A stretch of 64,000 bases of DNA from Lytechinus variegatus (lineage: Eukaryota; Echinodermata; Echinoidea; Temnopleuroida; Toxopneustidae), in NCBI RefSeq assembly GCF_018143015.1, contig NC_054740.1, positions 67,358,856 to 67,422,855 on the forward strand, written 5' to 3'. Below the pieces are notes generated by a model. It did no database searches and was not told where the DNA came from. It was given only the letters and a program-made list of their open reading frames with translations. The position numbers and the translations under genes are program-made. This document shows, piece by piece, positions 57,501-60,500 of this stretch. How positions within the stretch are numbered: position 1 is the stretch's first letter; every line of letters starts with the position of its first letter.

Positions 57501-60500
57501 TAAAGTATTTTTCTTCATCATAAAATCATACCATAGAAACAAGATTTTGATATTTTTTGGCTTCCCATAATTTCAGCAGAGAGTTTAACTGCACTTCAAA
57601 GTATGGATGTATATGTGCATAATATTGGTCAGCATATTCCATTTATTCTTACATAGGGCTTTGGGTTTAGAACAATGCAAAAACAATGACTATAGAGTTA
57701 GAGTAAATTTGATGTTAGACTTTACAAGTGGCTTTTTAATAAACAAATTTTTTTCTATAAAACCAGTTGTTGCCAGACCAAATGTAATGAAACCCTGATT
57801 TGAAATGAGTAAATTGCATGTGAATTATAATTTGCTGACAGATAAAAGACCTTGTGAAAAGCATGGGAAAGGTAACAGAGCTATATCTCTGGAACATGTC
57901 CAAAAAAGTTATCCTACCACAAACAGTCATTTTACTTTGCCGGATAGGGAAAATACGATACTGACTTTACCATATAAAGTGTTTGGTAATCAAGAGAATA
58001 CAATTTCATGTCAATAATGACCTCTGTGCACTTTGACCTTTTACCTTATGACCCCAAATTCTAACCAGATCGTAGTTACTCCACGTCCATATTTCAGCAA
58101 AGTTTTAAGTTGATACCTCATTAGGTTCTCATGTTATAGTGAGAACAAGAAAGCATATTACAAAGTTATCATTAAAGCATGACCTCTGAAAGGACCTCTA
58201 TTTACACTGACCTTACTCCAAAAACAAATCAGATCATCGTCTAATTTGCATATAACTCAAGGTTATTGGTGATTCATCAAAAATTTGTTCAACTATGAGA
58301 ACGAAAACAGGGCAGGAGGACGGACAAATAAAAAGCATAACGCCTCCAGGTTCACAATTCAAAATTACAGAATTATGAATCACCCCTCAGGGAATCAGGG
58401 AGGACAGACAGTAAGGGGAGAAGAGATAGGAAAAGAGAGAGAGAGAGAGATGGGTGGAGAAGACAATTTACACATGTAAACATTCACATATTCCACTCAA
58501 GGGGGAAGAATAGATAGCCAAGGAAAGAGTGACAAAGAGAATGTGAAATTTTTTAGTGGTGGTGAGTGAGGCATGACACATGAACACACACAAACCTCAA
58601 CACACCCAATCATACACATCCTATCAAAATAGAAAAGAGAATCAAAGAAAGAGAAAGAGAGAAAGGGGAAATGAACTGAACAAAGACACTCTCACAAACA
58701 TGGACATACATAACACCCACATCAAGAGTAATATAACACATGACAATTGAAGAAGTGTTAATGAGAAAGGTGTCCCTCATGTGCAGCCGTGTAAGGAGGT
58801 TAGACTCATAACACACGCACACAGATGACTTACAGCCGCGATAGAAGGTTTCTTATCATCACCCGGCTGGGGGATGCGTAACATCAGCTCCGCAAAAGAT
58901 GACAGGCTCGCTAAATATGCGGGGTCTGAGTTTTGAGATAAAATCGGGGAGGTGTGTTGGAGGAAGGGGGTTGGAACAAACAGTAAAGGGCATGATGCAG
59001 ACAAGAGAAATACCATACACCAACAACTTACAGCGGCAATAGACGGTTTTGTATTGTCGCCCGCCGGAGGGTGCGTAATGTCGGCTCCCATAAATATGAC
59101 TGGTGCTCCGAAGACGCGCGGCCTGGGGAGATATTTTCACGAAAATCATTAGAGCAAACAGTTTGCCAAAAGTTGGCTGAGAATACAGTCAAACCCGTCT
59201 TTGCTGCTACAACCATTTCTCAATGAAGGTCAAATGCGTATTGTGGTTACGTATTTGTTTTCTCTTGGTAAAAAGAAGCCCATTTTGCAGAAAAATACCC
59301 CAAATGAGCATTGAAGAAAACACTTTAATTCTAAACACTTTACAGACAGGTGTAACTGTATTCCAGTCCTTATCTCAACCTTCACTTATTAGGTATAAAG
59401 AATATCTAAAGCTGTAAAGATTTACTTCATAGTCTTGAGAAATTAATACTTCTATTTTAGAAAAGAAAGATAAACTAATGGATTTTCTTTCATCATCCAA
59501 AATATTGAATATTATAACTAGCACTGAAAAACTTAACATCAATCAATATTAAGAATCATCGCTTATTAACAAGTTAACATTATCAGTTAAAAAATGAAGA
59601 AGCTTCAGAAGATGTTTGTTTTAACAATTTCAAACACCTTATGCCCTGAAGATCTAAAATCTAAAATCTTTTTCTATAAAAACATATTTTTGGCTCAATA
59701 TTAATACACTGTTCCTTTTCTGAAATTGCTGAAGATGATTTGAAAAGCCCTTTCGTTCACTTACCTAATGTTAGGAGCCAAGATATTGTTGACTCCACCC
59801 AGTTTGACGTTGATCTTAAGACATAGATTGGAGAGGGTTTGTGCCGTGGTTCTGTTCACATTCTTAACTTGTACACACTGTGTTGCTATACCCAACAGAG
59901 TGTCACCGACTCTCTTCACTTCAGCTGTAGAAAATATAGAGAGAATACAATCAAGAATCTATTGATGTTACAGAGGTAACATAGTGGATAAAGATACCAC
60001 ATATAATCAACTGGATAGCTGGGGTTATGATGACTAAACAATAGTCAAGAATGCGGGTAAGCTGTCTGGATATTGCCAGATGACAATGATGCACTAAGCA
60101 CTAAGTCAGTGTGAAATTTCATTACTTTTTATCAGAGAAATTTCTAATCTGTAACAATCTGGGAATTTCAGTCATTTTAACTGAAGACATTGGTGCCGAT
60201 GGTGGTAGTGATTCCTTATACAGAGGGTGTAAGTAAGAAACCAGAGGAGTTAAGGTTTTAAGTCCTCTCCAAGGGACAGGGTGGTGCGGGAACATGCCTT
60301 TCCCAAGGGAAATGATACATACAGTGGGAATTGAACTTGGGTGACTGAACTGCAAGATCATTCTCATCACATTCTCAGACACCTGGCCAAAAAGCACTCA
60401 AACAAGAGTCAAGCCAACTTTATACTCACCGTAGACGGGTGTCTTTCCCGGTAGTACAACGATGATGAGCTGGAGTTTGGGCCACATCTTCTTGAGATGT

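Follow-up and report, generated by a model that had tools for sequence, protein, structure and literature searches.

Two tandem versions of the catalytic exon in a sea urchin Argonaute gene, putatively alternative and kept apart by the reading frame

The minus strand of the window analysed here (the whole stretch of 64,000 nucleotides, bases 67358856-67422855 of contig C1, in an assembly of 869.6 Mb and 33 contigs) carries an AGO-clade Argonaute gene. Its catalytic exon, the 14th of our model, is found in two tandem versions, A and then B. The reading that we favour, and consider reasonably probable, is that these are alternative catalytic exons which the reading frame would make mutually exclusive, B being the ordinary exon and A a divergent one under constraint, and that an extra base in the B exon of the window is private to one of two near-identical copies of the gene.

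We modelled 17 exons of the Argonaute gene by homology, spanning 69175 to 54781 (69175 is given in window-based numbering and falls beyond the window end, on extension sequence); the reliable part of the model leaves out the N-terminus, the beginning of its first exon and the end of exon 18. The PIWI domain was matched exon by exon by PF02171, above the Pfam cut-off. The features of the gene are as follows.

Exons 1-6, beyond the window end, minus strand, homology model.
Exons 7-12, 63982-63919, 63452-63381, 62259-62212, 61864-61742, 61183-61044 and 60614-60430, minus strand, homology model.
Upstream exon 13 (EVKRVGD...NNILAPNI), 59924-59765, minus strand, ending within an Arg codon (AG/).
Copy A of the catalytic exon, 59122-59032, minus strand, 91 nt, cag/GC...GCT/gtaagt, with the first catalytic Asp.
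A-B intron, 59031-58926, minus strand, 106 nt, the shortest intron of the modelled gene.
Copy B of the catalytic exon, 58925-58834, minus strand, 92 nt, cag/AC...GCT/gtaagt, with an extra base at 58864 that gives stops.
Downstream exon 15 (VVGSMDGH...SEGQFLQ), 56559-56365, minus strand, with the counterparts of E637 and D669 in human AGO2 by alignment.
Exon 16 (...RREQ), 55265-55131, minus strand, homology model.
Exon 17, 54882-54781, minus strand, homology model.
Exon 18 coding match, 54250-54053, minus strand, holding the residue aligned to H807, its 3' end not reliably modelled.
Last coding match, C-terminal, 45571-45464, minus strand, protein match.

Both versions are co-linear AGO exons in the correct place of the 17-exon model, with GT-AG splice sites and the donor GTAAGT on each, so the tandem pair is more than a chance resemblance. 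The initial annotation had described two tandem homologous catalytic exons, each with its own splice sites, and the coordinates, splice sites and residues are confirmed here. The 3' part of exon 16 is also repeated once in an intron of the same gene (55057-54983). It was rejected as a second alternative exon, only that 3' part having been copied; from the nearest AG it would be 77 nt by manual count, which breaks the frame.

At the protein level A and B are alike at 23 of 30 residues. The 91-nt form of B found in a sister copy of the gene (see below) differs from A at 29 of 91 nucleotides, 20 of them at third codon positions. Residue positions were taken from an alignment to the AGO2 of solved structures (PDB 4OLA and others, which we take to be human), and D597, E637, D669 and H807 are presumably, in that numbering, the catalytic residues of AGO2. 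The first catalytic Asp is present in both A and B and aligns with D597; exon 15 supplies E637 and D669 and exon 18 supplies H807, so that the D-E-D-H tetrad is kept in both predicted isoforms. The seven differences fall at residues 586, 588, 589, 594, 598, 606 and 607 (human AGO2 numbering) and flank the catalytic Asp. Because of this position, and because the whole tetrad is in both isoforms, the swap is expected to tune the active site or nearby contacts rather than to abolish slicing or turn it on and off. Human AGO2 has a co-linear PIWI domain with the same four residues, but presumably a single exon of this kind, whereas the urchin gene has two that differ at seven residues.

We then translated the spliced combinations. 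A alone gives an open frame, and so does the 91-nt B of the sister copy, while the 92-nt B alone, whose length and single extra base are as first reported, stops inside B. Inclusion of A and B together stops inside B at either B length, and skipping of both gives a stop within two codons of the junction. Since both, neither or the 92-nt B alone all end early, the pair is predicted to be exclusive at the protein level whatever the splicing machinery does. The lengths of the pair are 91/91 in the sister copy and 91/92 in the window copy. The earlier proposal that including both exons or neither shifts the frame holds in that an early stop follows each way, but A with the 92-nt B adds 183 nt, a multiple of three, and there it is the reading of B in the wrong frame that brings the stops.

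The same early stops (on skipping, on joining A to B, and with the 92-nt B alone) would also be produced by a decay switch, in which a frame-breaking combination is included on purpose to lower the Argonaute level. We regard this as very improbable: B is an ordinary coding exon in the sister copy and is present in a predicted protein of Diadema setosum, and some unproductive messages would be expected from any pair of exons that is exclusive by frame.

Mutually exclusive exon pairs that arose by tandem exon duplication are familiar from tropomyosin. In the mechanism that we propose for the alternative exons, splicing would take either A or B as the 14th exon, and messages with both or neither, stopping early, would be destroyed by nonsense-mediated decay. 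Either isoform would keep the slicer tetrad, with the surroundings of the active site retuned. As read, the window's copy could make the A isoform only, and the sister copy could make both.

The intron between A and B may contribute to this exclusivity. It measures 106 nt, against at least 248 nt for the other modelled introns, and contains two yUnAy branch-point-like sites, 48 nt from the donor and 13 nt from the acceptor; steric hindrance in so short an intron is suggested, weakly, as an aid. There is also no AG for 101 nt before the B acceptor, which is the longest AG-free zone of the 18 acceptors compared (others 3-90 nt). This zone is not rare for its base make-up, being matched in 8.6% of shuffles, and we keep it as weak support. 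A suggestive parallel is OGDH, where, in an excerpt of the published description (PMC7969005), exclusivity is enforced by branch points close to the donor site of the intron that separates exons 4a and 4b. As in the urchin pair, with its lengths of 91/91 or 91/92 nt, the exons are described there as adjacent and homologous, of similar length and phase, with a short intron between them, and as breaking the frame when both or neither are included, which for the urchin pair was computed here. The urchin pair differs in that the exon holds the catalytic Asp of an Argonaute, and it is known from genomic sequence.

A near-identical second copy of the gene lies on the same contig at C1:61.81-61.83 Mb, 5.6 Mb away. 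In this sister copy A is identical (91/91) and B is intact, 91 nt long and open. A whole-genome DNA search with copy B gave these two places only among the matches listed, a search that sees close copies only, the 79%-similar exon of a paralog being absent from its list. Over the 17 exons (2,064 nt) the two gene copies show 3 differences, all silent, with no amino-acid difference, and the extra base in B is the only coding lesion found across the modelled gene. In a longer alignment, these exons included, 243 of the 17,346 aligned bases are mismatched (1.4%), and there are indels besides. Around the A and B exons 536 nt are without substitutions, which is not exceptional; longer substitution-free stretches are found nearby, up to 1,296 nt, and conservation of the surrounding intron was therefore dropped as an argument.

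The duplicated block extends over at least 61.544-61.895 Mb, matching 67.178-67.488 Mb (at least 310-350 kb). Probes at the block ends are 96% and 98% identical, and the stretches between them match mostly at 91-99% in the part of the block that was compared. Both copies of the block also contain a second AGO gene on the opposite strand (the paralog), in which one catalytic exon, LGADVTHPP, was found per block. Several side features were also seen. Positions 1-11241 of the window give off-register matches to the sister block at 72-84%, which suggests internal repeats. For a 1.5-kb stretch (L016:4000-5500) there were 308 candidate matches across the genome, 40 of which were scored, at 99-100% identity; it is probably a young mobile element. 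Four further partial copies of exon 16 were matched in each block's second AGO gene, some with indels, and the intron that precedes exon 15 of that gene contains decayed remnants of exon 15 (VVGNMDGHPS...; L013 6284-6417; L011/L012 joined 9428-9574).

The intact 91-nt B means that the extra base is not fixed, B without it being present in the same assembly. It also speaks, together with a B-type exon in the D. setosum protein, against the suggestion in the initial annotation that an isoform has been lost to the animal or the species. The extra base, whether lesion or error, would instead be confined to one member of a near-identical pair of gene copies. It is quite possible, though we hold it short of probable, that it is an assembly or consensus error and that both copies are intact, the copies perhaps being two haplotypes of one locus kept apart. 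The run changes only from GG to GGG, which is short for a long-read homopolymer error, and two blocks 5.6 Mb apart on one contig may just as well reflect a real segmental duplication. Consistent with error or haplotypes, on the other hand, the extra base is the only difference in 17 exons that changes the amino-acid sequence, the duplicated block is at least 310-350 kb in size, and the divergence between the copies, about 1.4% with indels in addition, is similar in magnitude to the 2.1% heterozygosity given for D. setosum in an excerpt of PMC11066563.

Relatives indicate which of the two exons is the ordinary one. The closest named protein among the matches listed is the predicted argonaute-2-like protein of D. 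setosum (P0124), identical to the model with A at 659 of 688 residues. Seven of its 29 differences fall in exon A, and 22 of the other 658 residues differ. Its catalytic exon is B-type and, counting from the first Pro, agrees with copy B at 29 of 30 residues, so B is probably the ordinary exon and A a divergent alternative, a distinction absent from the initial annotation; one relative thus does have B, a point that had been left to comparison with other species. Among the 317 distinct exon matches (of 318) counted in the 345 fetched proteins, P0124 alone has Cys at position 594. From Strongylocentrotus purpuratus, P0127 carries the exon of the second AGO gene, at 30 of 30 residues. No A-type exon was found in the 327 exon matches of the 345 proteins fetched by three protein searches (the best 120 of 689, 2,679 and 636 matches, with one representative per 90% cluster); the search scored on the A exon alone was the one with 636 proteins, of which the best 120 were listed. 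Ala at residue 589, as in A, is likewise in none of the 317 distinct matches. P0124 represents four sequences, among which an A isoform could hide; the D. setosum record itself holds B only, and nothing in its name marks it as one isoform among several.

Comparison of A with B gives saturation at silent sites (pS 0.82) and a dN of 0.156. It had been argued from the wide silent divergence that both copies were long under selection; the saturated silent sites and the low protein change agree with this, but the conclusion requires that the time elapsed since duplication be the same for A and B. Codon likelihood models were fitted to A, B and the paralog's exon, thirty codons in three sequences, which is little data. 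With equal time, omega of A was 0.057 or 0.044 in the two topologies, and a neutral A was rejected with 2dlnL of 25.5 (duplication younger than the gene split) or 33.7 (older); a neutral B was rejected with 33.3 in one topology (duplication younger than the gene split), also with equal time. When the equal-time constraint was lifted a neutral A was not rejected (-234.65 neutral against -235.38 free, the free fit containing the neutral one and so not being fully optimised). The result on A therefore presupposes that A and B are sister exons produced by a tandem duplication. The codon models superseded a cruder simulation, in which none of 20,000 runs kept seven or fewer residue changes with all 29 changes placed neutrally on A, and 11% of runs did so with half of them on A.

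These results bear on two other accounts of A. B could be the only exon in use, with A an unused relic or a pseudo-exon that is still open, as the protein of the relative, which shows only B, and the failure of the unconstrained model to reject a neutral A would allow; these genes also hold decayed fragments of other exons that were duplicated into introns, from exon 15 in the paralog and from exon 16 in both genes. We think this unlikely, as a neutral A is rejected with equal time since duplication. Moreover, A is 91 nt long and open, has splice sites and the catalytic Asp, is identical in both gene copies and, in the window's copy, is the only one of the two versions to leave the frame open. 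Less likely still would be an origin of A by later recombination from another diverged Argonaute, the silent divergence having been gained elsewhere. A stands at about the same distance from B and from the exon of the paralog (29 and 30 nucleotide differences), and the unconstrained model allows a short A branch, but no donor appeared in the whole-genome protein search, where the matches listed, other than the two A exons, were only B, the exon of the paralog, exon 15 and a single match at chance level.

Variants of the catalytic exon were also seen in molluscs. In a gene prediction from Batillaria attramentaria (P0138), known from the predicted protein alone, two stretches resembling the catalytic exon stand in tandem, as in the urchin gene, and the first of them has Ser for Asp (GAS). 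In Saccostrea cucullata a named isoform, X5 (P0232), known from the protein alone, has a variant of the exon with Asn for Asp (GAN). In both molluscs one version is without the Asp, whereas urchin A and B both keep it. Such variants may be gene-model errors or paralogs. The first Asp is absent in 5 of the 317 distinct exon matches, P0232 among them; the first stretch of P0138, also without it, lay outside the search pattern and is not counted in the five. P0138 also doubles a segment ending in LQYGGR before the catalytic exon, where another tandem exon pair may exist, and P0017, P0033, P0048 and P0094 are fragments with Leu, Thr or Ile for the first Asp. Two further candidates were set aside: Amphibalanus P0139, whose high score came from a doubled start of exon 15 and not from the catalytic exon, and Calidris P0121, a whole repeated segment that looks like a gene-model artefact.

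Our literature search found no description of alternative catalytic exons in an Argonaute, judged by title or the start of the abstract and with most subscription journals outside its range. The nearest published case is that of shrimp Ago1 in Marsupenaeus japonicus; in an excerpt of that report (PMC3510085), Ago1A, B and C are isoforms of one AGO gene that probably arise by splicing and are distinguished within the PIWI domain. The shrimp isoforms have or lack a 27-residue insertion, whereas in the urchin a catalytic exon would give way to an alternative of equal length. It is conceivable, but distinctly doubtful on the sequences at hand, that a swap of the catalytic PIWI exon is a recurrent or ancient means by which animals vary a single Argonaute, urchins keeping the slicer residue and retuning its surroundings and the alternative of molluscs removing it, so that splicing would switch between cutting and non-cutting forms.

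Gene duplication is the usual explanation for the diversity of Argonautes. With alternative catalytic exons one gene would give two forms, in which the guide-binding parts are common and the surroundings of the active site differ, and such forms might be divided by tissue or stage. If the two gene copies are haplotypes, the copy with A only and the copy with A and B would allow a comparison of alleles inside one animal. A natural pair of isoforms seven residues apart, beside the first catalytic Asp, would be a clean test of how slicing is tuned in an animal Argonaute.
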